Of a stretch of 36,171 nucleotides of DNA, positions 2,659 to 31,662 are shown piece after piece. Under the pieces are notes generated by a model, which was given only the letters and a program-made list of their open reading frames with translations, made no database searches and had not been told where the DNA came from. The position numbers were made by a program, and so were the translations under genes. The first letter of the stretch is position 1. Each line of letters begins with the position of its first letter. This stretch comes from a virus: IMG/VR virus record IMGVR_UViG_3300021142_000091, positions 1 through 36,171 of that record. One strand, 5' to 3'.

Positions 2659-4200
2659 TCAATCATCTTCTAATTCTGACTCTAATTGTTTAATCTCATT
2701 GAGTATTTGTTTAAGTTCTTCTTTCTTTTTCATCATTATCCCTTTATTCTTTTTTCTATCTGTATAAACATCAATTAACATATTTATTGTTGGTGATATA
2801 TTTTTAAAAAAGACACATCCATTATTACATATAACCACATTATCAAAATCAATTTCAGTTCCATTTGAGCAAAAGTTTTTATTATTTGGATCTTGAATTC
2901 CTACAAAATTTTCGGGGGAAATGTAAAATTGAATCTGTGTTCTTGGATATAGAGAAGCAAAGTCGTAGCAAACACACCATTTGTTCATTCCAACAATTGG
3001 GTCTTTAACAAATCCACCTTCTATTGTCCCTTCATCACTACCCTCTTTTTCATCATCTTTAAATATGATAGCGTTCATTTGATCTTTAAATCTATGTCTT
3101 AAAACTCCTTCCGTAATAGCTAATGTACCTAAATTATTTTTAGCTTTAGATAATACATCAGTAATTTTTATTCTTGATAAAGAACTTATCGCATAAATAA
3201 TAGAGATATAGTTTTTGGCATCATGTATTTTTTGAACTAACACGGAATCCACCGCATTATAATACATGAAAGTTTCAAAATCATCTTCATATAATTTTTG
3301 TAAAGAACCATTATATTTAATTTTCTCTAAACCAATTAATTTATTAGATACAAATTCTAATTTAGAAGATTCTTTAATCTTAATTGTAGTATCACAGATT
3401 TCATATAACTGCATATAGTCAAAAATCATTTTATGTGCAGGCATTTCATAATCTTTCAACCAAATTTTATTCATTTTTTTGGTTGGAGATGCTACAGCAG
3501 GATCAATAGTTATTTCTTTACCATTGATTTTCTTTTTTAATTTTCTTGACCTATTAACTAAATAAATCCAGTCATAGTTAACGAAGTTCCATCCTGTCAT
3601 AACAGACATTTTTGGAACCATCGTATTAAAAAAGTTATACATCATATCAAATTCTGAATCGTATTTAACATACTTAAACTTATATGTTGTTCCTAACTTT
3701 TTAAAGTATTTATTAGTATTATCTAATATACGTGTTTGTGTTTCACTTGATAAGTCTTTTAATCCTAAAAGGATTATTTTATCTTCATAAACAATAGATA
3801 TAGAAAGAACTTTTGTAGCTGCTCCTTCTTTAATTACATTTCCTGCTTCATCTTTTATATCAGCTGCTTCGGGAAATCCATCTACTATTTCAGTTTCAAT
3901 ATCTATAAAATAGATATTGGGTAAATTAAATTCAAAGATTTCTTCTCTTTCATTTTCTGGAAGAGTGTCTAAAAACTCATAAATAGAATATCTATTTGGG
4001 TATGGAGAATCTACTAATTTAATAGATTTACCATCCCATGATTTATATTTTTGATCTTTTTCAGGGTCTTCATCGTCACAAACTACGTATTTTTTGGGAT
4101 TTGGCCATTTATAGTATTTTAGTTTAATATTTCCTGACTTATCTACATAGGAAACTACTAAATTTTTTGTACTTGGTAGGTATTGAGTATCAACTAGCAT
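2659..4200 (-). CDS. 43: Family B DNA polymerase, N-terminal half (exonuclease plus motif A); split gene
   Basis: 513 aa, against about 900 for T4 gp43. Exo I is FIDIETE (D100, E102), Exo II is GWNFVNYDW (about 203-211) and Exo III is YNAVDSVL (D318), so the 3'-5' proofreading domain looks intact. Palm motif A is CYDFASLYPR (D413 to R420), followed by the T4-like continuation with ISPENF. The protein then ends in a Lys/Glu-rich helix (about 483-513). Motif B (KxxxNSxYG) and motif C (DTDS) are absent, so this product cannot polymerise alone. The other half must be encoded elsewhere, or the polymerase is non-functional. Downstream sits a GIY-YIG endonuclease. Split gp43 is known in some T4-like phages such as Aeromonas phage 25. 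The start ATG at 4198-4200 gives the usual MLVDTQYLP-type beginning. Confidence 0.9.
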   Translation of the reverse strand: MLVDTQYLPSTKNLVVSYVDKSGNIKLKYYKWPNPKKYVVCDDEDPEKDQKYKSWDGKSIKLVDSPYPNRYSIYEFLDTLPENEREEIFEFNLPNIYFIDIETEIVDGFPEAADIKDEAGNVIKEGAATKVLSISIVYEDKIILLGLKDLSSETQTRILDNTNKYFKKLGTTYKFKYVKYDSEFDMMYNFFNTMVPKMSVMTGWNFVNYDWIYLVNRSRKLKKKINGKEITIDPAVASPTKKMNKIWLKDYEMPAHKMIFDYMQLYEICDTTIKIKESSKLEFVSNKLIGLEKIKYNGSLQKLYEDDFETFMYYNAVDSVLVQKIHDAKNYISIIYAISSLSRIKITDVLSKAKNNLGTLAITEGVLRHRFKDQMNAIIFKDDEKEGSDEGTIEGGFVKDPIVGMNKWCVCYDFASLYPRTQIQFYISPENFVGIQDPNNKNFCSNGTEIDFDNVVICNNGCVFFKNISPTINMLIDVYTDRKKNKGIMMKKKEELKQILNEIKQLESELEDD

Positions 4201-6419: not shown

Positions 6420-6710
6420 CTATTCTAAAAGTTTAGAAATTTTTTTATCTCTTAAAAATATTTTCACTATATGAATTAGAAAATCATTATATGATAACTT
6501 ACTTAAAGTAAAATCAAAGATATTTTCAGTATAAAAATCTACTTTATTAGAATACTCTTTTATATGAGTATATTGTTTATTTGTATAAAATAAATCATCT
6601 AATGTCATTTCGTAAAAATCTGAATATGTTCTCTGAGTATATAATATATTGTTTTCTATGCTATAGAAGTTATATTTATTATTAATTATTTTTATTTTAA
6701 AATAATACAT
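6420..6710 (-). CDS. Small hypothetical protein, 96 aa, with shared C-terminal tail
   Basis: Begins MYYFKIKIINN, like the next upstream gene (MYYFTIKNI), and overlaps its end by 14 bases, so the two are paralogues in one unit. The body is Tyr/Asn/Phe-rich and looks like mixed alpha-beta. It ends FLRDKKISKLLE, which fits the tail pattern R-[DNE]-x-x-[IL]-x-x-[IL]-L seen at the ends of the tiny proteins at 15122-18278. Function unknown. Start is the ATG at 6708-6710. Confidence 0.65.
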   Translation of the reverse strand: MYYFKIKIINNKYNFYSIENNILYTQRTYSDFYEMTLDDLFYTNKQYTHIKEYSNKVDFYTENIFDFTLSKLSYNDFLIHIVKIFLRDKKISKLLE

Positions 6711-7053
6711 CTAATATTTTATCTATTTTTTTATTTCTTATTTCTATAAGAATATTTCCTATTACATTTTTCAAAAAAAGCGTATGATTTCCATTTTCAA
6801 TATAATCCCAATCAATTATAATATTTTTACATTTATTAAAACTAATAATATCTCTACATACAGTCCACGTTAATTTATTACTATTAAGATCATATTCTAA
6901 TATATCATTTATATAAGCTTTGTTTATAACAAAATATTCATCACTTTTAACAAAAAGTGTATTATTTTCAATATCTAACACATAATAATTATTAATTATA
7001 TAATGTGTATAATAATCATTTTTAGTTATGTTTTTTATAGTAAAGTAATACAT
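6697..7053 (-). CDS. Small hypothetical protein, 118 aa, with shared C-terminal tail
   Basis: A paralogue of the following 96-aa gene, with the same MYYFxIK start. It is rich in Asn, Ile and Tyr and has no recognised domain. The C-terminus IRNKKIDKILDVLF contains RNKKID, identical to the tail of the 35-aa protein at 18020-18127. That links this pair to the tailed mini-protein family on the plus strand. The stop overlaps the start of the next gene, suggesting coupled translation. Function unknown. Confidence 0.65.
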   Translation of the reverse strand: MYYFTIKNITKNDYYTHYIINNYYVLDIENNTLFVKSDEYFVINKAYINDILEYDLNSNKLTWTVCRDIISFNKCKNIIIDWDYIENGNHTLFLKNVIGNILIEIRNKKIDKILDVLF

Positions 7054-7878: not shown

Positions 7879-8055
7879 ATGGAAAAAATAATCAAAGCAA
7901 CACCATTAACACAAGAAGAAATAACACTTCTTAGAGAGCAATATGTAATAGAATATGCTAAGAAAAAAGGATGGGATTCAAATAAACTTTCAACTACACA
8001 ACTTTTAGAAATTGTAGAATCAAAAGGTTATAAGCATCCCATGATTTTAGGTTAA
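7879..8055 (+). CDS. Small hypothetical protein, 58 aa
   Basis: I use the ATG at 7879 (MEKIIKATPLT). The longer upstream reading would run into the glycosylase gene on the other strand. It is helical and charged, with segments TQEEITLLREQ and TTQLLEIVES. Its stop overlaps the end of the convergent peptidase gene. No family recognised; possibly a small regulatory protein, but nothing shows this. Confidence 0.55.
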   Translation: MEKIIKATPLTQEEITLLREQYVIEYAKKKGWDSNKLSTTQLLEIVESKGYKHPMILG

Positions 8056-15121: not shown

Positions 15122-15337
15122 ATGAATACAATTAATGTAAAAATACAAACATATAGAATTATTGGCGGTCTTAGAGATTGTATTAAATTATTTTTACAAG
15201 AAACTAAAGAACAAGTATTAACTTTAGAAGTTTTAGAAAAATATAATTTTGAAGAAAAAGATTTATATGATATGAAACTAACTAAATCAAAAATAAGAGA
15301 TTTTAAAATTAATAAAATATTAAAATTATGCCCGTAG
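15122..15337 (+). CDS. Tailed mini-protein 1, 71 aa
   Basis: I choose the ATG at 15122, 2 bases after the previous stop; the longer GTG start at 15068 would overlap that gene. The N-terminus MNTINVKIQTYRIIGG is of unknown origin. From about residue 35 it has the module common to the array: a helix with VLEKYNFEEKDLYDM, then SKIRDFKINKILKLCP. The tail Arg lies 13 residues from the end, one more than in the others. Stop and next start overlap by 10 bases. Member of the shared-tail family; function unknown. Confidence 0.7.
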   Translation: MNTINVKIQTYRIIGGLRDCIKLFLQETKEQVLTLEVLEKYNFEEKDLYDMKLTKSKIRDFKINKILKLCP

Positions 15338-15567
15338 TTTCATTGGATTTCGCAAGTTTATATCCTAGACCAATGGGTGATTTTTCTATGGGAGATGATT
15401 TTGATAAATCTACTAAGTATCTATTAGATAGAAATAAAGATCATGATTATGTAGATCTTTTATTACTTGAAAAGTATGGGTTGGTAACAAGTAGTTTATT
15501 TGATTTTCCTTTTGTTCAAACAAAGGTAAGGGATTATGAGATAAATAAAATATTAGATAGTATATGA
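15328..15567 (+). CDS. Tailed mini-protein 2: family-B polymerase motif A fused to shared tail
   Basis: 79 aa. Residues 3-15 read VVSLDFASLYPRP, the family-B DNA polymerase motif A. The eight residues DFASLYPR are identical to D413-R420 of this phage's own polymerase, but six of eight codons differ, so this is not a recent copy of that gene. The rest, from about residue 25, is the array module (KYLLDRN, LLLEKYGL) ending VQTKVRDYEINKILDSI. Nothing else of the polymerase is present, so it has no enzyme activity. It overlaps the next gene by 4 bases (ATGA). Confidence 0.8.
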   Translation: MPVVSLDFASLYPRPMGDFSMGDDFDKSTKYLLDRNKDHDYVDLLLLEKYGLVTSSLFDFPFVQTKVRDYEINKILDSI

Positions 15568-15806
15568 GTGATATAATCAGGCAAGAACTTAAAAAAGTAA
15601 TAAATAGTTTTTATGGAAGAAATCCCGATATAGAAACTAATTTTACTAAATCTATAAAGTTTTTGTTATCTAAATTGGATGTTAAGTTTATAACATACGA
15701 ATTTGTAGAAAAGATAAAAGAGAAATATGATATAGTATATACGGATTTGTCTGATTTTTCATTAGTTCAGACAAAGGTAAGGGATTATGAAATAAATAAT
15801 ATATTA
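15514..15806 (+). repeat. Two copies of a 42-bp tail-coding repeat
   Basis: 15514-15555 and 15765-15806 encode the tails VQTKVRDYEINKIL and VQTKVRDYEINNIL and differ at 3 of 42 bases. The N-terminal parts of the same two genes are unrelated to each other. The constant ends are therefore young duplicates while the variable ends are not. Confidence 0.85.
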
Positions 15807-15818
15807 AATAAAATATAA
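15564..15818 (+). CDS. Tailed mini-protein 3: family-B polymerase motif B fused to shared tail
   Basis: 84 aa. Residues 8-18 read ELKKVINSFYG, matching family-B motif B KxxxNSxYG, the fingers helix that holds the incoming nucleotide (INSLYG in T4 and RB69). This is the motif missing from the truncated polymerase at 2659-4200. From about residue 28 the array module follows (KSIKFLLSKL, EKIKEKYDI) and ends VQTKVRDYEINNILNKI. No motif C, so no polymerase activity. It comes directly after the motif A protein, in the order the motifs have in the polymerase. Confidence 0.8.
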   Translation: MSDIIRQELKKVINSFYGRNPDIETNFTKSIKFLLSKLDVKFITYEFVEKIKEKYDIVYTDLSDFSLVQTKVRDYEINNILNKI

Positions 15819-15820
15819 AA

Positions 15821-16042
15821 ATGCCTAATATGCCATTACCACATTATGGATATACTTTACCTGGTTTAGAATATATACGTAGTTTAAACATACTTGAATC
15901 CCATGAAGGACCTATTACTTTAGGTTTAGTATTAAAACAATTATCTCTCTATAAAATAGACGAATCTGATTTACATTCTGTTTTTGCATGTAAAACAAAA
16001 ATAAGAAATTATAATTTAGAAAAAATCTTAGAAAGTATCTAA
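15821..16042 (+). CDS. Tailed mini-protein 4, 73 aa
   Basis: Starts 2 bases after the previous stop. The N-terminus MPNMPLPHYGYTLPGLEYI is Pro/Tyr-rich and resembles nothing else in the window; by analogy it may copy a core protein encoded elsewhere. The module follows (LGLVLKQLSLYKIDESDLHS) and ends TKIRNYNLEKILESI, with Arg 12 residues from the end. Function unknown. Confidence 0.7.
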   Translation: MPNMPLPHYGYTLPGLEYIRSLNILESHEGPITLGLVLKQLSLYKIDESDLHSVFACKTKIRNYNLEKILESI

Positions 16043-16073
16043 ACAAAAAAAAAATATTTTTTTATCACTTTAT

Positions 16074-16373
16074 ATGAAAAGTAAAAGTGATTTAAAAATA
16101 AAATATGGTGATAATATTATAGACGAGATAGAAAATAAATTAGCAAAAGAAATATCTAATAGTATTAATAAGAATATTGTAAATACTATTTTTGAAATGA
16201 TACCGGGTAGAGTATATCTACTTTCTTTAGTTGAAAATTCTGATAATAAAGAAGGTGAATTATTTATACTAATGGAAAAATATGGCATTATAGAAGATGA
16301 TTTATATAGTCTTGAAATTGTTAAATCAAAAATAAGAGAATATAATATAGATTTAATCTTAAAAAATAATTAA
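16074..16373 (+). CDS. Tailed mini-protein 5: capsid spine-helix fragment fused to shared tail
   Basis: 99 aa. Residues 14-42 align without gaps with residues 378-406 of the major capsid protein encoded at 22332-24140. There are 11 identities in 29 (I15, E20, L23, E26, S28, I31, K33, I35 and the closing FEM) and most other positions are conservative. In T4 gp23 the corresponding stretch is the long helix after the Asp/Glu-rich segment. From about residue 45 the array module follows (VYLLSLVEN, LMEKYGIIEDDLYSL) and ends SKIREYNIDLILKNN. Start is the ATG at 16074, 31 bases after the previous stop. Confidence 0.75.
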   Translation: MKSKSDLKIKYGDNIIDEIENKLAKEISNSINKNIVNTIFEMIPGRVYLLSLVENSDNKEGELFILMEKYGIIEDDLYSLEIVKSKIREYNIDLILKNN

Positions 16374-16380
16374 CTTTTTC

Positions 16381-16413
16381 GAAAATTTTTAATATATTTG
16401 TATGAATAAAACA
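16381..16413 (+). repeat. Copy of the peptidase promoter region at a gene start
   Basis: Nearly identical to 13550-13582 (GAAAA, T-run, ATATATTTGTAT, AATAAAACA). The TATATTTG box (16393-16400) sits one base before the ATG at 16402. If it works as a promoter, transcripts start inside that gene or are leaderless; it could also feed the tmRNA downstream. Confidence 0.55.
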
Positions 16414-16767
16414 TTAATAATTAATAATCAATATTACAATATATCTTCAAATAATTTTGATATATCTCAAATTGATAATGGATATAGGTACTACGGAAGT
16501 TATAGTAATATAAATAATTTGAATTCATATTCTGATTATTTAACAAATCAATTGAATTCAAATATTCAATACTCTCAGTATACTTATGAACCAATATATG
16601 GAGATGAAATTGAAAGTAAAAAATATTTATTATTATTACATAAAGATAAAAATTTATCAGATATAATGGAAATATATGATTTATCTGAAAAAGATCTTCA
16701 AAAATTGAGTATAGTTAAGTTAAAAGTAAGAGATTATAAAATAAATTTTTTACTAAAACAAGATTAA
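16402..16767 (+). CDS. Tailed mini-protein 6: scaffold-repeat-like segment fused to shared tail
   Basis: 121 aa. Residues 42-63 (SYSDYLTNQLNSNIQYSQY and on) match about 1.5 units of the 14-residue repeat (SYSEYIAENLDKNI) of the protease-scaffold protein at 24222-26432, with the same 14-residue spacing between YS(D/Q)Y units and about 12 of 22 identities. The N-terminal 40 residues are Asn/Ser/Tyr-rich. The array module follows (KKYLLLLHKDKNL, IMEIYDLSEKDLQKL) and ends LKVRDYKINFLLKQD. Last gene before the tmRNA, 29 bases upstream of it. Confidence 0.75.
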   Translation: MNKTLIINNQYYNISSNNFDISQIDNGYRYYGSYSNINNLNSYSDYLTNQLNSNIQYSQYTYEPIYGDEIESKKYLLLLHKDKNLSDIMEIYDLSEKDLQKLSIVKLKVRDYKINFLLKQD

Positions 16768-16796
16768 AAAATATAATATATACATTACAAATACAT

Positions 16797-17158
16797 GGGG
16801 ATGAAATGATTTAGATTCATGGAATTAATGGTAGAGATGCAAACATCGGATAATCCTAACCCGATTAATAAATTGGATTAAAGTCTAAACGACAAAACAA
16901 ACACAGTAGCAAGCCGTGAAGAATTAGTAGCCGCTCTACAAAACAACATCTTAAAGGTAAACGAAGTAGCTTTTGCTTAATTGACAAAGTCAGAAAGGTT
17001 TCCAAATAGTTAAAAATCTATTCAAAAATTTTCGGATTTGTTAGGGGGTCGTTAAAAACTAAATTAGTTTGTTATTTTATAAAAAAATAACTACGTTTGT
17101 AAATGAGTTTCTATGATTAACCAGAGAAGACCCGAATTCGCCTTCGGCATCTCCACTA
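16797..17158 (+). ncRNA. ssrA: tmRNA (transfer-messenger RNA)
   Basis: About 362 nt. The 5' end GGGGATG pairs with CATCTCC (17148-17154) in a 7-bp acceptor stem with a G3-U pair, the alanine identity element, and discriminator A at 17155. After it comes CTA, not CCA, so CCA must be added or repaired. A T-arm stem CCGAA/TTCGG closes a loop TTCGCC. The start region (GATTTAGATTCATGG, then ATGCAAACATCGG) is like bacterial tmRNA. The tag frame ends NEVAFA then TAA (16978-16980). If it resumes at GCA (16909), as CAGTA-GCA suggests, the tag has 23 residues, longer than the usual 8-15. tmRNA rescues stalled ribosomes and tags the peptide for proteolysis. No SmpB gene is in the window. Confidence 0.9.
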
Positions 17159-17186
17159 AAAAATACCCCTTAATTGGGGTATTTTT
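17159..17186 (+). terminator. Terminator of the tmRNA
   Basis: Stem AAAAATACCCC/GGGGTATTTTT (17159-17169 with 17176-17186), 6-base loop, right after the tmRNA 3' end. Confidence 0.9.
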
Positions 17187-17198
17187 AATTAACCTAAT

Positions 17199-17618
17199 AT
17201 GAATGATGATAACTTTGATAAATACCTAAAAATTAGTAATTTATCTTTAATAATTAAAAAAATAGGAGATAGAATAGATTTTATTGATAAAAATAAAATC
17301 TATGAAAATATAGATGGATGTATTAGAGAATCTAATATAGATTTTATATTAGATCAACAAAAAGATTTTTATTTTCTTGATGTAGAATACTTCAGAGGAA
17401 GAAACCCATTAAATAATAATTATTATCCTATAAATTATAAATTAATAGAAAGTGATATGATTAAAATAAAAAATTTTAATCAATTATCAAAATCTAAAAT
17501 AATTATTGTAGGACATTTTACTATACAAAAATTATATCAGTTAGCAGATTTTATTATAGAATACATTGATTCTAAACCAAAAATTATTAAAAATAGATAT
17601 TTTCCAATTTATGATTAA
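17199..17618 (+). CDS. Hypothetical protein, 139 aa
   Basis: Begins right after the tmRNA terminator. Soluble, Ile/Asn/Lys/Asp-rich. A segment KSKIIIVGHFTIQKLYQLADF (about 98-118) looks like a hydrophobic strand then a helix. No motif known to me and no tail of the mini-protein type. It overlaps the Fe-S carrier gene by 8 bases, so they are probably translated together, and it may help that protein. Confidence 0.65.
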   Translation: MNDDNFDKYLKISNLSLIIKKIGDRIDFIDKNKIYENIDGCIRESNIDFILDQQKDFYFLDVEYFRGRNPLNNNYYPINYKLIESDMIKIKNFNQLSKSKIIIVGHFTIQKLYQLADFIIEYIDSKPKIIKNRYFPIYD

Positions 17619-17937
17619 AGTAAGTTTAACCGCAAAAGAACAAATAATTAAATTAAAAAGTGAAGAACCTAATACAGGACAATACCTTAGAGTAGGTGTA
17701 AAGGGTGGAGGGTGTAGTGGATTATCATATATCTTAGAATTTGATGATATATATGATGAAAAACTTGATGAACTTTTTGAAGATAATGATATAAAAGTTA
17801 TATGTGATAAAAGAAGTCTTCTTTATATATTTGGAACCGAACTAGTATTTTCGGGTGGTTTAAATGGTAAAGGATTCGAGTTTATTAATCCCAATGCAAG
17901 TAGAACTTGCTCTTGTGGAGAAAGTTTTTCAGTTTAA
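17611..17937 (+). CDS. A-type iron-sulfur cluster carrier (IscA/SufA/ErpA family)
   Basis: I use the ATG at 17611 (MIKVSLTAKEQI), which gives 108 aa, the normal family length. The three cysteines are C35 in GGGCSGLSY and C100, C102 in TCSCGESF, the family's C-x(64)-C-G-C pattern with Ser for Gly between the last two. The fold binds and passes on 2Fe-2S or 4Fe-4S clusters. In this phage the helicase at 1-1386 has an Fe-S cysteine cluster and could be a client; that is inference. IscA-like genes in phages are uncommon but known from marine phages. Confidence 0.92.
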   Translation: MIKVSLTAKEQIIKLKSEEPNTGQYLRVGVKGGGCSGLSYILEFDDIYDEKLDELFEDNDIKVICDKRSLLYIFGTELVFSGGLNGKGFEFINPNASRTCSCGESFSV

Positions 17938-17950
17938 AAAAAATAATAAT

Positions 17951-18013
17951 ATGAACAAAGATAAAATAGATTTATACAATTTTTTAGTAGATACCCCTTA
18001 CTTTTCTAAGTAA
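17951..18013 (+). CDS. Possible 20-aa peptide gene
   Basis: MNKDKIDLYNFLVDTPYFSK then TAA, 13 bases after the Fe-S carrier stop and 6 before the next tiny gene. It lacks the tail. It may be a real peptide, a leader, or an accident of AT-rich sequence; support is position only. Confidence 0.3.
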   Translation: MNKDKIDLYNFLVDTPYFSK

Positions 18014-18019
18014 TATGTT

Positions 18020-18127
18020 ATGGGAAAGATATTTAATTTTTCTTTTTCTGATATACAATATATCAATAATTTAGAACTAATGGAAAAAAGAAATAAAAAA
18101 ATAGATGATTTATTAAATGAAGATTAG
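18020..18127 (+). CDS. Tailed mini-protein 7, 35 aa
   Basis: ATG at 18020. The N-terminus MGKIFNFSFSDIQYINN is of unknown source. The end LMEKRNKKIDDLLNED has Arg 12 residues from the C-terminus, as in the array upstream, but the helix module before the tail is absent. RNKKID is identical to the tail of the 118-aa protein at 6697-7053. It overlaps the next gene by 11 bases. Too short for standard gene finders; the tail is the evidence. Confidence 0.6.
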   Translation: MGKIFNFSFSDIQYINNLELMEKRNKKIDDLLNED

Positions 18128-18278
18128 TATTGATGAAATAATAACCTATGATATAGTTGCATCTCCAGCACTTACAAACGCCAAACTAGTATATGATGAT
18201 GAACTTAAACAAAAGAAAATATTAGAGGATATGGAGAGAAGAAATAGGATTTTAGATGAGTTATTAAAAGAGGATTAA
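18117..18278 (+). CDS. Tailed mini-protein 8: prohead-protease strand fused to shared tail
   Basis: 53 aa, ATG at 18117 inside the previous gene. Residues 10-17 read TYDIVASP; the phage protease at 24222-26432 has TYDIVADP at 148-155. The DNA shares a 14-base identical run there. Then NAKLVYDDE leads to the end LEDMERRNRILDELLKED, with Arg 12 residues from the end. The stop codon lies inside the hairpin terminator that follows. No catalytic residues of the protease are present. Confidence 0.65.
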   Translation: MKISIDEIITYDIVASPALTNAKLVYDDELKQKKILEDMERRNRILDELLKED

Positions 18279-20612: not shown

Positions 20613-20641
20613 AAAAAGAGGACCTATTTAGTCCTCTTTTT
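20613..20641. terminator. Bidirectional terminator
   Basis: Stem AAAAAGAGGAC/GTCCTCTTTTT, 7-base loop, followed by four more T. It lies between the 174-aa gene (plus) and the capsid-fragment gene (minus). Confidence 0.9.
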
Positions 20642-21121
20642 TTTACCTGTTTTATTTATTGGAGGTATATAATTTGTTGATGTAGATGGGGTAGATGGTG
20701 TAGCGTAAGCATAATCTAAATAAAATAAATTAGGTCTAGAACCTGTTTTATATAACTCATGTTCTTCTTCTTTAAATTCCTCAAATTCTTTGTTTTCTAA
20801 AATAGAATCTAATTTTCTATCACGATTAATGATAGCAACTTCTCGTTTAATTCTTTCTTTTTCCTCTTCTGAATTACCAAAACCTTTCATAGGGTTAACA
20901 GTAACTAAATCTAACCCTATTGTTTGAGCTGCTATTTTTTTAGCAATTGGTAATAAACTAGGAAAAGATTCATTTGATTGTGTACCTACTAATGTAGTAT
21001 CCATATTTATTTCATTTTTTAAATGAAGATTAGCATATTCTGTCATCCAGTTATTTACTACAGATTGTGTAGATGATAAATGATCTAAATCTTTCATATC
21101 AAATTTGAAATTTTCATACAT
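20624..21121 (-). CDS. Partial copy of the major capsid protein (N-terminal region), 165 aa
   Basis: Residues about 18-80 follow the capsid protein at 22332-24140: WMTEYANLHL matches WMAEYAEYHA, and LLPIAKKIAAQTIGLDLVTV matches LLPVAMKIAAQTIGLDLVAV at 91-110. Near the end LFYLDYAYA matches LVYVDFQYD. It then stops in a Thr/Pro/Ser linker and a basic end KKKRTK, so the HK97-fold core is absent. A Glu/Arg-rich insert lies in between. It has its own ATG and open frame. It sits beyond an endonuclease gene that separates it from the true capsid gene. A decoy, a head accessory, or a decaying duplicate are all possible. Confidence 0.8.
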   Translation of the reverse strand: MYENFKFDMKDLDHLSSTQSVVNNWMTEYANLHLKNEINMDTTLVGTQSNESFPSLLPIAKKIAAQTIGLDLVTVNPMKGFGNSEEEKERIKREVAIINRDRKLDSILENKEFEEFKEEEHELYKTGSRPNLFYLDYAYATPSTPSTSTNYIPPINKTGKKKRTK

Positions 21122-22331: not shown

Positions 22332-24140
22332 TTAGTTAAGGTAGCCATTAGCATCGTTAACGTAGATAGTCATAAATTGTTTTTGTGGGAAGAAACCTAA
22401 TTCAGCCACAGCATATCTTGATCTTAAAATCATTCTTGGAGCAAATGTTGCTTCTGACATGATTGAGATAGATTGTGCCATGAGGAATGGCACGAAACAG
22501 ATACCTGGTTGATCAGGATTGTTTTTACGTCCGATTAAGATTCTGTTGTCATTGTATTTCATGTAAGGATCTACGTAGATAGTGATATCACCGATTTGAC
22601 CTACAGGGTACATTTGACCGTTTGTGTTTAATTTAGATTTAAGTGGGTTAATTGTGTAACCTGCAACATCCATTAAAGCTGCTGCTAAACCACCATTTGT
22701 TACCGCGTATTGTGCTGGTCCAACACGTCCTTCAGTTGCGATGTAGTTAGAAGCATGTACCATTTTAGTGATAAGCTTTCTTTGTACAGCGTGTGTAGTT
22801 TCACCACCTGGTCCTGCTTGAACATAAGTTGTATCTAAGTCAAATATAGTTTGACCAGAAATGTTTCCACTTGCTAAAGCTGATGATGAAATAAGTGGAG
22901 CAGAAGATCTGTTTGTATTACCCATTTCAAATACTTTAGCAATAATTTGCTTAGAGATAGTTTGAGAAAGTTCGTTTACAAGGATTGATTCCATTTTTTG
23001 AACGATATCCATACCAGTATTAGCTTTAATATCTTCAATTTCTGTTCTACGTAATGCAGAACTTACTTCTACTGTACCAACTGTAATTGATTTAGAAGAA
23101 ATTTTTGGTCCAATTGTACCTGCATAATTGTTTTCTTCTTCTTGACGAGCCATTGGATATTGTCCACCATTTCCTAAGAAGTTTGTAACATATCCTGGTA
23201 ATTGATCTTCAAGAGCAGATACTAATGAAATACCAGTAACAGATACAGTATATCCAAATAAATTTGTTATAGAAGTTAACATTGAACCCGAAGCGGTACC
23301 TGCATTTGAAACATCAAATGAATTATTTGCTTGGTTTAAACCGTAAAATTGTCCACCACCATATGCACCACCTGCAGCGTTTGTTTCTCTAAAAGCTCTA
23401 AAAATAGGTTGACCATCAATACGAGAGAAACCTAAAAATTCAAGAACTTGATATTTGTTACTAGGGTCTGTTAAACCAGTAGAACTTCCTTGAGAATTAT
23501 TAAGCCCAGCTAATGTAGTTGTTGCCCAAATACCATTAGATTGTGTAACCCCAGCTATCAAATAACCACCTGTTCCAAAAGCAGTAAAAACTCTTGCCCC
23601 TAATGCTAATCCACCTTGTACTTGTTGAATACCAGCTGTTGTTAAAGCTGTAGATATAGCAGTATTAAATGATTGACTTAATCCATTACCAGTTGAAGAA
23701 CCGAATTGAATTTTGAATACTTGTGGTTTTGTATTAAATTGATTAAGATTTAAATCGTCATATTGAAAATCAACATAAACTAAATCAATCTTTGGACCTG
23801 GAGTTGGCTTTACAGCTACTAAATCAAGACCAATTGTTTGTGCAGCAATTTTCATAGCTACTGGTAATAAGTTTTGTCCTAAATCACCTGAACCTATGTT
23901 TGATGAACCATAGTTTGCACCAATTGTTGTACCTGGATAAGTACCAACTTGTGGAGCTAAAACAGCACCCATACCATTTGTAGAAGCGTTAAGGTAAGCG
24001 TTTTCGTTTATTGCATGGTATTCAGCATATTCTGCCATCCATGAATATTTTTCTCTGTCCTCTTTGTTAACACCAATGTTCTCTAAAATTGGAGTCCATT
24101 TGTTAAGAGCTTTTTGTAAGTCAATTCTAACTTGTGACAT
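22332..24140 (-). CDS. 23: Major capsid protein, T4 gp23-like
   Basis: 602 aa, somewhat longer than T4 gp23 (521). The N-terminal ~110 residues contain WMAEYAEYHA and LLPVAMKIAAQTIGLDLVAV, the gp23-type N-terminal segment that is normally cut by the prohead protease; the match IGLDLVAVKP is where mature capsid usually begins to fold. The spine helix region (378-406, ending FEM) follows RRTEIEDIKANTGMD. The C-terminal part has ITIYVDPYM and LRSRYAVAELGFFP, typical of the family. Codon use is more GC-rich than in neighbours, in line with high expression. The protease-scaffold gene lies upstream, as in T4. Confidence 0.93.
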   Translation of the reverse strand: MSQVRIDLQKALNKWTPILENIGVNKEDREKYSWMAEYAEYHAINENAYLNASTNGMGAVLAPQVGTYPGTTIGANYGSSNIGSGDLGQNLLPVAMKIAAQTIGLDLVAVKPTPGPKIDLVYVDFQYDDLNLNQFNTKPQVFKIQFGSSTGNGLSQSFNTAISTALTTAGIQQVQGGLALGARVFTAFGTGGYLIAGVTQSNGIWATTTLAGLNNSQGSSTGLTDPSNKYQVLEFLGFSRIDGQPIFRAFRETNAAGGAYGGGQFYGLNQANNSFDVSNAGTASGSMLTSITNLFGYTVSVTGISLVSALEDQLPGYVTNFLGNGGQYPMARQEEENNYAGTIGPKISSKSITVGTVEVSSALRRTEIEDIKANTGMDIVQKMESILVNELSQTISKQIIAKVFEMGNTNRSSAPLISSSALASGNISGQTIFDLDTTYVQAGPGGETTHAVQRKLITKMVHASNYIATEGRVGPAQYAVTNGGLAAALMDVAGYTINPLKSKLNTNGQMYPVGQIGDITIYVDPYMKYNDNRILIGRKNNPDQPGICFVPFLMAQSISIMSEATFAPRMILRSRYAVAELGFFPQKQFMTIYVNDANGYLN

Positions 24141-24221: not shown

Positions 24222-26432
24222 TTAAATGTTTTTGAATCTTTCTAATATTGATTTGAAATCTGAATCAGATAATTTATCTTCTTGTATTAAACTATCATGA
24301 GAAATCATTTTTTTAGTTGATTCATTCTTTTTTAAGTTTCTAGTTAACCAAAAATGTTCAACTTTAGCTTCTGAATCCAATTCAGGATACAATTTAGCTT
24401 GTGAAAGAATTGATTTTTTAGAACTTTCGTTTGTTACTTCCCAAATTGATTTTATATTTTCTGGCATCAATCTGATTAGTCTTTCTTCTAATGATTCATT
24501 TTTAATAGAAAGTGCTTCTTGTATTAATTTTATAACTTCTGAACTTGTGAAATAACTCTTTTCGTTTATGTAAAGTTTTACTTGTTCTTGCTCTTCGTTT
24601 GTTAAGCTATAGTAGCTATCAACTTGAGACTTGTTTAAAAATTTTAAGAAATGTAGATCGTTTGTTTCAGAAACTTTACGTTTTCTAGCTTCTTCGATTA
24701 ATAAATCTATTTTTTTACTTAAATCTGAATCTGTATTTTTATTTTCGTGTGTTAAATATTCTTCATCTGCTTTAGGTACTTCTGGTAAATCTTCTAATTT
24801 TACTTCTTTACCTAATTCTTCATCTTCAATATCTGCTACGTTTGGAACATCAGTATCAACTTTTTGTTCTTCTGGTAATTCAACTTCTGTTAATTCTGTA
24901 TAATCTAAAGAAACTGGAGTTGCTTCATTATCTTCACCTGCTTTTTCAACACCATCTTCACCATGAAGTTCATCTTCACCACCTTCTAAATAGTTATCTG
25001 ATTTATTTTCAATGTCATTTTCACCAAAACCATATTCTTCTAATGTAGGAATAAGATTTGATTCATTACTTTCAAATAATTTAGTACCATTAACTTTTTC
25101 AGAAATTAAACCTGTATAAGATACAGCTTTATCTAAGTTTTCAGCAATGTATTGAGAATAAGAAATGTTATCATCAAGGTGTTCTGCTATATATTCAGAA
25201 TATTTAATATTACCTTCTAAGTTTTCAGCGATGTACTCAGAATAAGCAATATTACCATCTAAGTTTTCTGCTAAATATTCAGCATAAGAAATGTTTCTGT
25301 CTAAGTTTTCAGCTAAGTATTCTGCATAAGAAATATTTTTATCAACGTTCTCAGCAATATATTCAGAATAAGAAATGTTTTTGTCTAAGTTTTCAGCGAT
25401 GTATTCAGAGTAAGAAATGTTTCTATCTAAATTTTCAGCGATGTATTCAGAATAAGAAATATTCTTATCTAAGTTTTCAGCGATATATTCTGCGTAAGCG
25501 ATATTTTTGTCTAAGTTTTCAGCAACATATTCAGAATATTTAATTGATTTGTTTAAGTTTTCAACTAAATAATCGTTATGTTCGATTAATCTATCAGTTG
25601 TATCTTTAAGAGATTTGTTCTCAGAAACAACAACTTGAATTTTTTCTGCTAAATAATCTAAGTATTTAACAACTTGAGAATTAGTTTTATTTAATTCTTC
25701 ATAGTAGTTTAAAAGTTTTTCTAATTTAGCTGGTTCTAAATTACCAGATTTAAGAGCACTTTTAACTTCTTTTTTAGTTGCAGCAATTTCATTAACTATA
25801 TATTTTGAATAGTCTGACAATTGATCTTTCGTTACGAATTCATTTTTGTTCATGTTAAATAATTCATTTATTTTTGATTCATTTGATACTTCATATATTC
25901 TGAAGTTAGCCTCATTTGAATAATTTAAAGACTCATTTATAGAAGACATTCTCGCAGAAGCAAATCCCGGATCCGCAACTATATCATAAGTAAATAATTT
26001 TTTTAGTGATACTGTACCATCAGCTTCTGTAATACCAGCAGCTCTTGAAGATACAAATATAGGGCAACCATCATCAACTAAAGCCTTAGCTTCTTTTCCC
26101 CAATAGGTATTTAATAATTTAATTTGTCCTTCAACTACATTTTTTTCTTTAACATAATATGCAGTTTTAATTAAATGTGATGCACGGGATAGTGAAGTAT
26201 CGAAAACGTCGGGGTGATCAAACTCACCATATACTACTCCCATAGTTGTAATTCTAGTGTTAAGTTCTTCTAAACAAGGTAAAAATCTTTCAGGAGTATA
26301 AACTCTTTCGTTTCTATTCTTAACCATAAATTCAGTAAAAGTACCGCCTAAAAGATAATCTTTTCTAGCATCTACCCCTTCATTCATCCTTAGAGGATTT
26401 GTATTATTTTCAATGATTAATACTGGCTTCAT
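24222..26432 (-). CDS. 21: Prohead protease (gp21-like) fused to a repeat-rich scaffold-like region
   Basis: 736 aa; T4 gp21 has only about 212. The protease is residues 1-165: VYGEFDHPD holds the catalytic His (H73), PIFVSSRAAG the Ser (S128 or S129), and TYDIVADPGFASA (148-160) is the conserved strand. From about 180 the protein is helical. Residues about 297-437 are ten or so tandem 14-residue units (SYSEYIAENLDKNI), then an acidic segment (450-570) and a helical C-terminus with ESKKSILSQAKLYPE. T4 keeps protease and scaffold (gp22) in separate genes; here both seem joined. The gene directly precedes the capsid gene. Confidence 0.9.
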   Translation of the reverse strand: MKPVLIIENNTNPLRMNEGVDARKDYLLGGTFTEFMVKNRNERVYTPERFLPCLEELNTRITTMGVVYGEFDHPDVFDTSLSRASHLIKTAYYVKEKNVVEGQIKLLNTYWGKEAKALVDDGCPIFVSSRAAGITEADGTVSLKKLFTYDIVADPGFASARMSSINESLNYSNEANFRIYEVSNESKINELFNMNKNEFVTKDQLSDYSKYIVNEIAATKKEVKSALKSGNLEPAKLEKLLNYYEELNKTNSQVVKYLDYLAEKIQVVVSENKSLKDTTDRLIEHNDYLVENLNKSIKYSEYVAENLDKNIAYAEYIAENLDKNISYSEYIAENLDRNISYSEYIAENLDKNISYSEYIAENVDKNISYAEYLAENLDRNISYAEYLAENLDGNIAYSEYIAENLEGNIKYSEYIAEHLDDNISYSQYIAENLDKAVSYTGLISEKVNGTKLFESNESNLIPTLEEYGFGENDIENKSDNYLEGGEDELHGEDGVEKAGEDNEATPVSLDYTELTEVELPEEQKVDTDVPNVADIEDEELGKEVKLEDLPEVPKADEEYLTHENKNTDSDLSKKIDLLIEEARKRKVSETNDLHFLKFLNKSQVDSYYSLTNEEQEQVKLYINEKSYFTSSEVIKLIQEALSIKNESLEERLIRLMPENIKSIWEVTNESSKKSILSQAKLYPELDSEAKVEHFWLTRNLKKNESTKKMISHDSLIQEDKLSDSDFKSILERFKNI
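25122..25544 (-). repeat. Tandem 42-bp repeats inside the protease-scaffold gene
   Basis: About ten consecutive 42-bp units encode the 14-residue motif (S/A)Y(S/A)EY(I/L)AENLD(K/R)NI. Synonymous differences and a few residue changes show the units are maintained at protein level. A 14-residue period fits four helical turns, so a long coiled coil is likely. Confidence 0.92.
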
Positions 26433-26558: not shown

Positions 26559-28376
26559 ATGATTATATCAAAAACTACAAAAATCAAAGTAAATGCGGCT
26601 AATTTCAAACATTATAAACAATTTTATGATCTAATAAAGTGTAATCAAATTATAGAAGTTAAAATAAATGAATTAACTAAAACAAGTAATGCTTTAGTAA
26701 AATTAAAGTGTGATAATTGTGATGTTGAAAAAGAAATAACTTATAAAAATTATACAAGTTATGGTTATATTAATGGGGAATATTTATGTAGAAAATGTAA
26801 ATTAGAAAATAATAATTTAGAAAAATATGGTGTTAAAAATGTTTTTCAAATTAAGGAGGTTAAAAAAAAAATTAAAGAAACTAATTTAGAAAAATATGGT
26901 GTTGAGTTTATATCAAAAAATAAAGAAATACAAAATAAAATTAAGGAAACTAATTTAGATAAATATGGGGTTGAATATTTTCTACAAAATAAAGAAGTTC
27001 ATAATAGAATTAAAGAAACTAATTTCAAAAAATATGGAGTAGAAAATGTTTCCAAATTAGATTTGGTAAAAAATAAGAAAAAAGAAACAACTTTAGAAAA
27101 TTATGGTGTTGAATATAATTCTCAAAGTGATCTTATTAAAAAAAATATAAAACAAACTAATTTAAAAAAATATGGTGTTGAGTCTAATTTACAAAACAAA
27201 GATGTTAAAGAAAAAATAAAGAAAACTAATTTAGATAAATATGGAGTTGATAACTATGCTAAAAGTGAAGAATATTTATTAAAATGTAAAGAAACTAATT
27301 TAGATAAATATGGGGTTGATAATTATAATAAGTCAGAAATCAGTAAAATAAATACTATAATAGGTCAACATCCTAATTATATTAAATATATTGACAATTC
27401 TATATCTTTATTTAAATGTGATTTAAATGAAAATCATGAATTTAAAATTCATGTTGATAATTTTCATAATAGATTAAAAAATAATATACCTTTATGTACT
27501 ATTTGTTATCCCATAGGAGATAACAAATCTATAAAAGAAAAAATTTTATTAGAATATATTCAAAGTATTTATTCAGGAGAGGTTATCTCAGGATATAGAG
27601 ATGGTATAGAAATAGATATTTTCTTACCTGAATTAAACATTGGTATAGAATTTAATGGATTATATTGGCATTCAAATAAGTTTAAAGAGCCAAATTATCA
27701 TATTAATAAACAAATATATTTCAAAGATAAAGGAATTGATATGAAGATGATTTATGAAGATGATTTTGATAAAAATTTTGATATATTAAAGTCTCAAATT
27801 AATAATTGGTTAAGTTTAACTCCAAATAAAATTTATGCTCGTAAAACTGAAGTTAGACAAATTTTAAATATTGAAGAATATAGAAATTTTCTAAATAATA
27901 ATCATATTCAAGGATTCGTAGCGTCTAAATTGATATATGGACTTTATCATCAAGATAATTTAGTTAGTTTAATGTGTTTTGATAAAAAAGAAGGACGTTT
28001 AAATATGCCTGAAAATGAATGGAATTTAAATAGATTTTGTAATTTATTGAATCATCAAGTAGTAGGTGGTGCTTCTAAATTATTAAATCATTTTATAAAA
28101 GAAAATTATCCTTCAAGAATAATTAGTTATGCTGATAAAGATTGGTCTAATGGAAATTTATATTTTTCTTTAGGGTTCAATTTAGTATCAGAGTCTAAAC
28201 CTGACTATAAATATATTATCAATGGGCTTAGAGTTCATAAACAAAACTTTAATAAACTTAAATTAGGTAAAATGGGTCATGATATATTGAATTTATCAGA
28301 ATCTCAAATTATGGAAAATTTAGGTATTGATAAAATATATGATTGTGGAAAAATAAAATTTGAAAAGTATGTATAA
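26559..28376 (+). CDS. Homing endonuclease with KYGV repeats and EFNGLYWHS-type nuclease domain
   Basis: 605 aa. A treble-clef zinc finger (CDNCDVEK, then CRKC, about 50-85) is followed by eight repeats of about 25 residues, each with KETNLDKYGVE or similar, a DNA-reading array. The nuclease has EIDIFLPELNIGIEFNGLYWHS (Asp, then Glu), of the Vsr/EDxHD group. The C-terminal part (GGASKLLNHFI, SYADKDWSNGNLY) is common to these proteins. A sister gene lies at 33792-35480 and a broken one at 28757-29095. It stands between the true protease gene and a dead copy of it. Confidence 0.88.
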   Translation: MIISKTTKIKVNAANFKHYKQFYDLIKCNQIIEVKINELTKTSNALVKLKCDNCDVEKEITYKNYTSYGYINGEYLCRKCKLENNNLEKYGVKNVFQIKEVKKKIKETNLEKYGVEFISKNKEIQNKIKETNLDKYGVEYFLQNKEVHNRIKETNFKKYGVENVSKLDLVKNKKKETTLENYGVEYNSQSDLIKKNIKQTNLKKYGVESNLQNKDVKEKIKKTNLDKYGVDNYAKSEEYLLKCKETNLDKYGVDNYNKSEISKINTIIGQHPNYIKYIDNSISLFKCDLNENHEFKIHVDNFHNRLKNNIPLCTICYPIGDNKSIKEKILLEYIQSIYSGEVISGYRDGIEIDIFLPELNIGIEFNGLYWHSNKFKEPNYHINKQIYFKDKGIDMKMIYEDDFDKNFDILKSQINNWLSLTPNKIYARKTEVRQILNIEEYRNFLNNNHIQGFVASKLIYGLYHQDNLVSLMCFDKKEGRLNMPENEWNLNRFCNLLNHQVVGGASKLLNHFIKENYPSRIISYADKDWSNGNLYFSLGFNLVSESKPDYKYIINGLRVHKQNFNKLKLGKMGHDILNLSESQIMENLGIDKIYDCGKIKFEKYV

Positions 28377-28770
28377 AATTAATTTTGATGATGAAGAAAT
28401 ACTTATTAATTACTTAAATTCGTTTGATAATAAATGGATAAAAAGACGAAAAATCTTAAATGAAATTTTAGAAATTGATGAAGATGATAATTTAAATTAT
28501 TGGGATTTATCTGATAGTGCAACATATGGAGAACTTTTTCATAAAAAATATGATTCTTCCACTAGTTTAAATAGGGTTTCTCATATTGTTAAAAACGTGC
28601 AAAAAATAAATGAGGAATATTTTGCTGAAATTAAAGTATTGAATACTTATTGTGGGAATGAAGCTAAAGGTTTAATTAATGAGGGATTTAGTCTAAAATT
28701 AGAATGTGTTTATCACGAATATAATTCAAAAAAAATAATTAGAATAGATATAAATTATGATAATAAGTAG
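28369..28770 (+). CDS. Partial, serine-less copy of the prohead protease, 133 aa
   Basis: ATG at 28369 (MYKINFDDEE); an upstream TTG is less likely. The sequence follows the protease at 24222-26432: YGELFHKKYDSSTSLNRVSHIVK corresponds to YGEFDHPDVFDTSLSRASHLIK, and IKVLNTYCGNEAKGLINEG to IKLLNTYWGKEAKALVDDG. The His is kept (GELFH), but where PIFVSSRAAG should be it reads FSLKLECVY, so the catalytic Ser is gone. The protein then ends. It overlaps the endonuclease stop by 8 bases. A dominant-negative decoy or decaying duplicate are the options; the frame is intact. Confidence 0.8.
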   Translation: MYKINFDDEEILINYLNSFDNKWIKRRKILNEILEIDEDDNLNYWDLSDSATYGELFHKKYDSSTSLNRVSHIVKNVQKINEEYFAEIKVLNTYCGNEAKGLINEGFSLKLECVYHEYNSKKIIRIDINYDNK

Positions 28771-29925: not shown

Positions 29926-31662
29926 TTAAAATTCAAACTCACCACCGCCAGCTTCACCACCGCCAGCTTCAGGTGCAGGAGGAGTTTCACCGCCAGCTTC
30001 AGGTGCAGGAGCAGCTTCACCACCTTCAGGAGGAGTTTCAGCCCCCGCTTCAGGAACAGGAGCTTCAGGAGAAGGACCTGCTTCTCCACCACCTCCACCA
30101 CCTTCTGGCATTCCACCTCCAGCAGCAGTTGATGATCCAACACCTTTTGATTTAATCCAATAAGCTTTATTTTCTTCAACTTCTTCGGGAGTTAATTTCA
30201 TAATTTTATCAACAAGGAAATCAACATGGAAATAAGGTTGTTCACCATTCATAATTCCTAATAAAGTAGTCATGATATTAGCTCTAGCTTCCATATTTGC
30301 TAATTTTTTCCATTCTTCAAAAATCTGATTTGTATTGAAAATAACATCAACTTGGTTAAGGAATACTTCATCATGTCTTAATTCAGGAAATTCCATACAC
30401 ATTTGAAGTTTAATTGGTTTAACAATTAGTTCTTTAATAATTGAACGTAAACGGCTAATAAAATTACCAAAAGTTATTTCATCTCTTGTCATTTCATTAG
30501 CAGCAGTCACTAACTGACCACCTCCATTTTCTTTCTCAAATCTTTGGAAAGGTATCTTACTTGCTCTTTTCAAACAATTCATAAACCAATTTAACATATT
30601 ATCTTCATTAAGATTATGCCCTTGTGGAGAAATTAGTTCCATATTTGGCGTACCTTGATCACCTTCTGGAAACCATATTTGTTTATTATATGGTAAATGT
30701 TTACTACCACTAATAGTTAATGTTCCTAATGAATCATCAAACTCTACATCCTCAGAATAGTCTGCTATTAATTGAGCAATTTGTTCCTCTGCTCTTTGTT
30801 TTGGTAAACCTTTAATAGGTATTGTAAACTTTTGATAAACCATCGCATTAACTACGTTAAACATAATTCTTGTTTGTTCCATAATCTTTAACTGATTATA
30901 TGGTTTAATAAGTCCTTCTACATAAGAAGTTTCAGAATAATCATGTTGAGTAGAATATGATATAAATACTATTTGTGAATCTAAGAAAATTCTTCTTAAA
31001 GCAGGATCTTCTGGGTATTGTATCCAAATATTTCCTATACTTGGTTCATAAGCGGGAACAAGAGTTTCAGGTCTCATTCTATTAAAACTAATAATATTCT
31101 TTTTAGTATCATCCCATATAATTTCAACTGCGGCATAACCATCAATTAAAAAATCTTTAGTCATATTCCATGCAGTAATACCATCAGAAAAACCAAAACG
31201 ATTATATATTTTTTCAAAAAATTCTTGATATTTATCTTGTATATCTTGTGAATAACTATTATTCAAAGGACTTGGAGAACAGAAATCTTTATCTTCATCA
31301 TATACAATAATTTCATCTGCTAATACAGATACAAATTCACGTATTTCATCCTTAATAGAATATTCTCTTAATATTCTCCTTTTATCTGAATACGCTTTAT
31401 CTAAATAAGGAATTGATTTTTTGTTTAAAACTTGAGCGACTGCTCTTTGAGAAAAGAAAGCATACATAGAATCCGCTCTTTGAGCAAGAGGGTCTTCATT
31501 CATACCCACCGAAATTGTGTTCCTAAGGATCATGTCTTCGTATTTAAGTCCTAATCCTGAAAGGGATCTAAGAAGACGATTAAATATACCTTTGTTTTCA
31601 ACAGCGGAAGGTATAATATTTGGATTTGTATTGTTATTTATTGGATTATATGATCCTGGCAT
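29926..31662 (-). CDS. 20: Portal vertex protein, T4 gp20-like
   Basis: 578 aa; T4 gp20 has 524. Family features include KYEDMILRNTISVG, QRADSMYAFFSQRA, SVLADEIIVYDEDKDFC, GYAAVEIIWDD and FMNCLKRASKIPFQRFE (DNA-channel and clip segments). The last ~55 residues are a Gly/Pro/Glu/Ala low-complexity tail (SPEAPVPEAG, PEGGEAAPAP) absent from T4, encoded by locally repetitive, GC-richer DNA (29938-30130). The portal is the dodecameric DNA gate at one head vertex. The promoter-like element is 23 nt upstream. Confidence 0.93.
   Translation of the reverse strand: MPGSYNPINNNTNPNIIPSAVENKGIFNRLLRSLSGLGLKYEDMILRNTISVGMNEDPLAQRADSMYAFFSQRAVAQVLNKKSIPYLDKAYSDKRRILREYSIKDEIREFVSVLADEIIVYDEDKDFCSPSPLNNSYSQDIQDKYQEFFEKIYNRFGFSDGITAWNMTKDFLIDGYAAVEIIWDDTKKNIISFNRMRPETLVPAYEPSIGNIWIQYPEDPALRRIFLDSQIVFISYSTQHDYSETSYVEGLIKPYNQLKIMEQTRIMFNVVNAMVYQKFTIPIKGLPKQRAEEQIAQLIADYSEDVEFDDSLGTLTISGSKHLPYNKQIWFPEGDQGTPNMELISPQGHNLNEDNMLNWFMNCLKRASKIPFQRFEKENGGGQLVTAANEMTRDEITFGNFISRLRSIIKELIVKPIKLQMCMEFPELRHDEVFLNQVDVIFNTNQIFEEWKKLANMEARANIMTTLLGIMNGEQPYFHVDFLVDKIMKLTPEEVEENKAYWIKSKGVGSSTAAGGGMPEGGGGGGEAGPSPEAPVPEAGAETPPEGGEAAPAPEAGGETPPAPEAGGGEAGGGEFEF

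Follow-up and report, generated by a model that had tools for sequence, protein, structure and literature searches.

The array and its common tail

The window, the whole 36,171-nucleotide stretch of viral DNA analysed here (IMG/VR record IMGVR_UViG_3300021142_000091, positions 1 to 36,171), carries an array of eight small open reading frames (ORFs), g1 to g8, all on the plus strand, whose proteins end in a common short tail. A sequence-only reading of this DNA had listed the eight ORFs and written the tail as R[DNE]xx[IL][NDE]x[IL]L. We found all eight where it had placed them, with the first residue of the motif 12 residues from the end in seven of them and 13 in g1. In the list below, which adds two further tailed proteins of the window, core proteins are the phage's own capsid, head protease, portal and polymerase, and the sister phage is an 82.8-kb contig (L003/G001) that is about 96% identical to the window over most of the region they have in common.

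15122..15337, plus strand: g1, 71 residues; common C-terminal domain at 15230-15334, tail KIRDFKINKILKLCP; no core-protein match for the front
15328..15567, plus strand: g2, 79 residues; tail KVRDYEINKILDSI; front VVSLDFASLYPR resembles motif A of family-B DNA polymerases
15564..15818, plus strand: g3, 84 residues; tail KVRDYEINNILNKI; front LKKVINSFYG resembles polymerase motif B, by eye only
15821..16042, plus strand: g4, 73 residues; tail KIRNYNLEKILESI; not in the sister phage; no front match
16074..16373, plus strand: g5, 99 residues; tail KIREYNIDLILKNN; front corresponds to major capsid protein segment DIKANTGMDIVQKMESILVNELSQTISKQIIAKVFEM
16402..16767, plus strand: g6, 121 residues; tail KVRDYKINFLLKQD; front replaced in the sister phage
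18020..18127, plus strand: g7, 35 residues as annotated; tail EKRNKKIDDLLNED; front piece upstream at 17951-18013, severed by a TAA
18117..18278, plus strand: g8, 53 residues; tail ERRNRILDELLKED; front ITYDIVASPALTNAKL corresponds to protease FTYDIVADPGFASARM
6697..7053, minus strand: 118-residue protein ending IEIRNKKIDKILDVLF, strict pattern
6420..6710, minus strand: 96-residue protein ending FLRDKKISKLLE, looser pattern

The first six proteins also have in common a helical C-terminal domain of 34 residues, while g7 and g8 have only the tail. A 90-nucleotide stretch that is 60-72% identical among g1 to g6 encodes their final 30-34 residues, and apart from this paralogous domain the array shows no strong nucleotide repeat. 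When g5 was modelled with AlphaFold2 together with nine relatives, a confident helical mini-domain was predicted at residues 59-99 (pLDDT about 90-97 over residues 60-99), and in this predicted model the tail is the last helix of the mini-domain. A fold search with the model gave no significant match, and no curated family in Pfam or PHROG covers any of the eight proteins whole; the partial matches are to core-protein families only. The fronts had been described as completely different. They do differ from one another, but in several a piece of one of the phage's own core proteins can be recognised.

In the sister phage, g4 is missing and the array is otherwise present with a different g6 front; the tail of g6 is kept and its front consists of the 14-residue repeats of the protease/scaffold protein. 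The tail of g7 is present as first read, but the gene is longer in two relatives (58 residues in L003 and an 88-residue frame in L020) and its front is severed in the window by the TAA at 18011-18013. Between the window and the sister, the ratio of non-synonymous to synonymous differences (pN/pS) is 0.39 over the array and 0.06 in neighbouring genes, with few substitutions per gene; single genes give 0.08 (g2), 0.40 (g3), 0.20 (g5) and 0.24 (g8), all from small counts. In Markov-shuffled genomes (n = 100) we found 0.01 C-terminal matches per genome, with a maximum of 1. Thus neither of the two outcomes named in advance as refuting the sequence-only reading, a motif just as common at the ends of random AT-rich frames or a dN/dS near 1 in related phages, was observed.

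The tag across related huge phages

The major capsid protein (MCP) of the window shares 60% identity with its counterpart in LR745206 (634 kb) and is related to the MCPs of huge phages of 636, 642 and 735 kb. The window belongs to the huge-phage 'Mahaphage' group, for which Bacteroidetes are the predicted hosts (PMC7162821). We assembled a clade set of 17 related contigs (2.6 Mb, window included), called genes by a simple longest-ORF scheme and loosened the motif patterns after inspection; the contigs are partial and the related phages are not independent of one another.

In a pattern search of this set, 96 genes have the loose motif at a distance of 9-16 residues from the C-terminus, where about 1.2 are expected from shuffling the last 20 residues; elsewhere in proteins the motif occurs 51 times in the 17 contigs. 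The 96 genes fall into 63 unrelated body clusters and encode carriers of 35-290 residues, and the C-terminal motif is found in 0 of the 856 genes of at least 300 residues. The arginine is placed 10-12 residues from the end in 76 of the 96, between 0 and 7 variable residues trail the motif, and the unfixed positions are biased too (for example, lysine at position 4 in 51 of 93). Synonymous codons vary at the fixed residues, and the motif-bearing phages span 24-34% G+C. Because codons vary at fixed residues, the tag acts at the protein level, and for the same reason we rejected a DNA signal read as protein, be it a promoter, a ribosome-binding site or a mobile repeat. The claim that a fixed C-terminal motif sits on otherwise unrelated proteins thus describes a real signal.

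Single phages show the same tendency. The 464-kb phage alone has 19 C-terminal and 2 internal motifs, and in an unbiased search for C-terminal patterns R...I..IL ranked first in it; R-type patterns ranked first in LR745206, and R...I..IL was the top pattern or among the top ones in several phages of the clade. LR745206 has 17 tails of this type (R-tails) where 0.18 are expected, and their carriers include a protein with a protease piece as well as capsid-like pieces. There are 11 in LR756502, among them one on a C-terminal piece of the capsid protein, and LR756504 has the variant R..KI..L. A literature search of open-access full text found no report of such a motif.

Two families in the clade are recorded here as separate observations. 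A capsid-like family of about 250 residues, f40 (G005 1140-1901, L047, L066-L069, L077, L089 and L106), carries the R-tail motif in 9 of 9 members, which in those loci are no more than about 10 kb away from the capsid gene. In G004, at about 61-69 kb and 183-192 kb, there is a large tandem expansion of more than 15 paralogues of the form MKHIKPYKIFES...IKKHYKIIE, conserved at the start and the end.

Pieces of core proteins and a second label

The resemblance of the fronts to core proteins was first noticed by eye and then tested against 38,880 PHROGs and against clade hidden Markov models (HMMs) made from the proteins of related phages, 77-80 for each of MCP, protease and portal and 13 for polymerase, with the clade HMM scores compared to 300 shuffles per front. 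The core genes and two further core-protein pieces in the window are as follows.

2659..4200, minus strand: N-terminal half of DNA polymerase, with motif A (compared with g2); phrog_262 E 3e-58
20624..21121, minus strand: P0005, 165 residues, an MCP N-terminal piece with an insert NRDRKLDSILENKE that holds the motif between two capsid stretches; E 3e-8 to the MCP family
22332..24140, minus strand: full-length MCP, source of the g5 and P0005 pieces; phrog_28442 E 2.7e-50, phrog_138 E 8e-25
24222..26432, minus strand: head maturation protease/scaffold with NISYSEYIAENLDK repeats, source of the g6, g8 and P0006 pieces; phrog_207 E 5e-29
28369..28770, plus strand: P0006, a relative of the head-protease catalytic domain with KRRKILNEILE near its N-terminus; E 2e-8 to the protease family
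29926..31662, minus strand: portal protein (compared with g7); phrog_213 E 2.6e-54

Matches of single fronts are weak except for g5, g6 and g8. The g5 front matches phrog_138, a major head protein (E 0.0025), Pfam Gp23 (E 0.0016) and the clade MCP HMM (18.5 bits, reached by 0 of 300 shuffles). Against the clade protease HMM, the g6 front scores 10.5 bits in the window and 42.7 bits in the sister, with all 300 shuffles lower, and g8 scores 10.1 bits (0 of 300 shuffles), its sole PHROG match being a head maturation protease (E 0.13). The intact g7 of L003 resembles the portal C-terminus (sole PHROG match phrog_213, E 0.01), and g7 scores 6.8 bits against the clade portal HMM, a value reached by 1 of 300 shuffles. 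The polymerase matches are weak: the g2 front matches the phage's own polymerase by blastp (E 0.001), its sole PHROG match is phrog_262 DNA polymerase at motif A (E 0.17), and it scores 4.9 bits against the clade HMM (0 of 300 shuffles). The likeness of g3 to motif B has no HMM support; all matches to the pattern used lie in tiny ORFs (g3, the sister copy of g3, G010, G006 and W03), the one exception being a 12-residue chance frame in G013. The possibility that g3 supplies a middle part absent from the split polymerase was rejected, since the true motif B (LALKLVLNGSYG) is located within the C-terminal half or immediately upstream of it. Single short fronts searched by tblastn against cultured phages gave nothing useful. 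The likeness between fronts and core proteins is at the protein level, and recent DNA copying from the core genes was rejected, as nucleotide identity is only 46-67% and codons differ.

To quantify the association, we compared small genes (<130 residues) that have a partial MCP, protease or portal match with other small genes. The loose motif is found in 10 of 12 core-piece genes and 67 of 876 others (p 8e-10), and with the window and its sister excluded in 5 of 7 and 54 of 839 (p 3e-5). The strict pattern of the sequence-only reading is weaker, at 7 of 12 core-piece genes and 2 of 7 without the window and sister. No enrichment was seen for partial matches to the other 82 large families. These data establish that the tag is over-represented on pieces of the phage's own core proteins. 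Its position, first described as the extreme C-terminus, is mostly that, but the motif is internal in P0005 and near the start in P0006, relatives of which are found in G001, G010 and G016.

The 735-kb phage LR756501 (W04) has zero R-motif tails. About 20 of its small genes contain a piece of MCP, protease or portal, and several of these core-piece proteins end in DPYGEE[DN]W. In this phage we found 100 copies of DPYGEExW in 86 genes, 40 of them no more than 15 residues from the C-terminus, with 79 distinct 24-mers among the 100 copies; the peptide is absent from all other genomes scanned. Copies stand at C-termini, after MIKKFxxFxE-type starts and within large enzymes, including four in one deaminase/CCA-adding enzyme protein. 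At 552-562 kb, LR756501 carries an array whose capsid-like and protease-like fronts are comparable to those of the window. One neighbour, at 553796, scores 45 bits against a large, 17-member clade family (best shuffle 13.9), and from this sequence match we read it as a probable tail sheath; some members of the array were read as terminase-like or fibre-like by eye only. The label is therefore real, acts at the protein level, is mostly C-terminal, sits on unrelated bodies and gives way to another label in the 735-kb phage.

Other genes of the window are described for context. Between g1-g6 and g7/g8 lies one RNA gene, a neighbour only.

16797..17158, plus strand: divergent phage transfer-messenger RNA (tmRNA)

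The tmRNA was detected by cmscan at 25.1 bits (E 2.8e-8 in a 551-base stretch), full-length to the model and under the Rfam gathering score, and was missed by ARAGORN; we read its tag frame as ending ..VNEVAFA-stop. The plus-strand gene at 17566-17937 encodes an IscA/HesB-type iron-sulfur carrier protein with relatives in other huge phages, and phages with an IscA-like neighbour, sister records excepted, are without the array. The DNA polymerase (window 2659-4200; relatives in G002, G006 and G015) is divided after motif A, and in some relatives its second half is apparently broken within motif B, between NGSY and GAFA, which suggests an intron or intein. Homing endonuclease genes (1615-2613, 5658-6416, 21129-22232, 26559-28376 and 33792-35480) adjoin or lie close to the genes for polymerase, thymidylate synthase, capsid, protease and portal. 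Two peptidase paralogues (phrog_4191) lie at 8052-9161 and 13594-14862, and their family, which is very frequent in the clade, has 103 members in the sampled sequences.

A proposed docking label and its rivals

Docking, packaging and degradation are all candidates for the kind of signal that the tail represents, and we favour docking: at roughly even odds (about 0.5), the tail is a lineage-specific docking label for one shared putative partner. In this model, the short helical tail would dock many small, fast-changing accessory proteins of one phage onto a single partner, phage-made or lineage-specific, that collects all labelled proteins, and each front would provide its own target. Core-piece fronts (capsid, head protease, portal, perhaps polymerase) would direct the labelled protein to whatever deals with the core protein in question; candidates for this are assembly sites, competing phages and host sensors of phage proteins. 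We infer the binding of a partner, its sharing among the labelled proteins and the targets of the fronts, because a docking label for one shared partner would explain a fixed peptide, unrelated bodies and a change of label between lineages. Poxvirus ankyrin-repeat/PRANC (F-box-like) proteins combine variable target-binding fronts with a common C-terminal recruitment module whose partner is known. The likeness lies in many viral proteins with varied fronts and one C-terminal module; in contrast, the PRANC system is eukaryotic and unrelated in sequence, and the partner here is putative.

Several results weigh against docking. Four members of the same clade, G004, G008, G019 and Lak-A2, have no or almost no R-tails in their partial sequences, and sampled Lak-A2 stretches have neither the R tag nor DPYGEExW. 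The label also occurs inside or at the start of some proteins, and it is therefore not purely a signal of a free C-terminus. We looked in LR756501 for the same body with a swapped tag and found no such small protein; in that phage, R-tag bodies match only the full-length capsid protein and the protease/scaffold. Therefore, the two labels form a parallel rather than a demonstrated orthology.

The strongest rival is a putative virion-packaging label, by which tagged proteins would be loaded into the prohead and delivered to the next host like the internal proteins of T4. The T4 capsid targeting sequence is N-terminal and cleaved. It offers the best-known precedent and a close likeness, being a short terminal sequence on diverse, fast-evolving small phage proteins (IPI, IPII, IPIII and Alt), and the T-even internal proteins are a highly diverse set with only this short sequence in common (PMC3012670), much as the bodies here are otherwise unrelated. 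The capsid, protease and portal of these phages are of T4 type, a number of tag genes are found some kilobases from the capsid gene, and pieces of capsid, protease or portal protein make up many of the fronts. However, the tag is usually C-terminal rather than N-terminal, is lineage-specific and also sits on core-protein pieces, and MKxF..F-type starts are not enriched (8 of 96 R-tail genes, 332 of 2981 genes). In the 464-kb phage most tag genes lie at 428-442 kb, far from structural genes (capsid at 246 kb), and in LR756501 the other label also occurs within large enzymes. We consider packaging unlikely.

A form of the docking model in which the core pieces are decoys or dominant-negative fragments, occupying host sensors or poisoning the assembly of competitors while the tag recruits an effector, is unlikely as a general account, and decoy or competitor-poison functions are a possible purpose of the core pieces themselves. 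The fronts match conserved segments (a capsid helix segment, the protease YDIVADPGF segment and polymerase motif A), between sister phages the array gains genes and exchanges fronts, and host sensors for the phage capsid and further phage proteins are known (PMC9712102, PMC11578894). Against this, most tagged bodies have no core-protein match, and such fragments might also poison the phage's own assembly. Fv1 and enJSRV Gag, restriction factors derived from capsid or env, are host genes with antiviral function. They resemble the core pieces in that pieces or copies of viral structural genes are kept as separate genes, but here the pieces are in the phage and are tagged.

It is improbable that the tag is a selfish or passively spread coding element, inserted in frame and functionless. 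Like Rickettsia palindromic elements, the peptide recurs in unrelated proteins, at the C-terminus, at the N-terminus or, in an insert between two capsid stretches, inside P0005, and LR756501 has its 100 copies of another peptide, some in large enzymes. However, Rickettsia palindromic elements are mobile DNA repeats, whereas here the DNA varies and the peptide is kept: codons differ, distinct 24-mers are the rule among the LR756501 copies, most copies are terminal with a nearly fixed distance to the stop codon, and pN/pS is below 1. We found no strong nucleotide repeat of the Rickettsia kind beyond the paralogous array domain, in a comparison that included no separate search for palindromes near the tags.

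A degradation or processing signal, giving short-lived regulators a common turnover route, is quite improbable. The carriers are small, the motif is at the extreme C-terminus and the tmRNA adjoins the array, but the motif is unlike the ALAA-type ssrA tail, internal versions occur and variable residues follow the motif. The reading that one small gene was duplicated in tandem and that its N-termini evolved fast, with the wider likeness an AT-rich coincidence, fits the paralogy of g1 to g6 over their final 34 residues but is refuted as a full explanation, because the bodies are not homologous beyond that domain and 96 genes in 63 body clusters stand against 1.2 expected, across 24-34% G+C and with varied codons.

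The tag looks like part of an undescribed address-tag system. We suggest tentatively that huge phages run lineage-specific address labels, with one hub collecting dozens of small effector-like proteins, including labelled capsid, protease, portal and polymerase pieces, and that the labels (RDKKIxKIL or DPYGEExW) may serve as a phage-identity code against other phages or host sensors. For most small proteins encoded by huge phages, neither relatives nor a function are known, and a common label groups dozens of them at once; finding its one partner would give a large set of uncharacterised genes a common role. Tagged capsid and protease pieces under two different labels suggest an undescribed layer of assembly control, phage-phage conflict or immune evasion.

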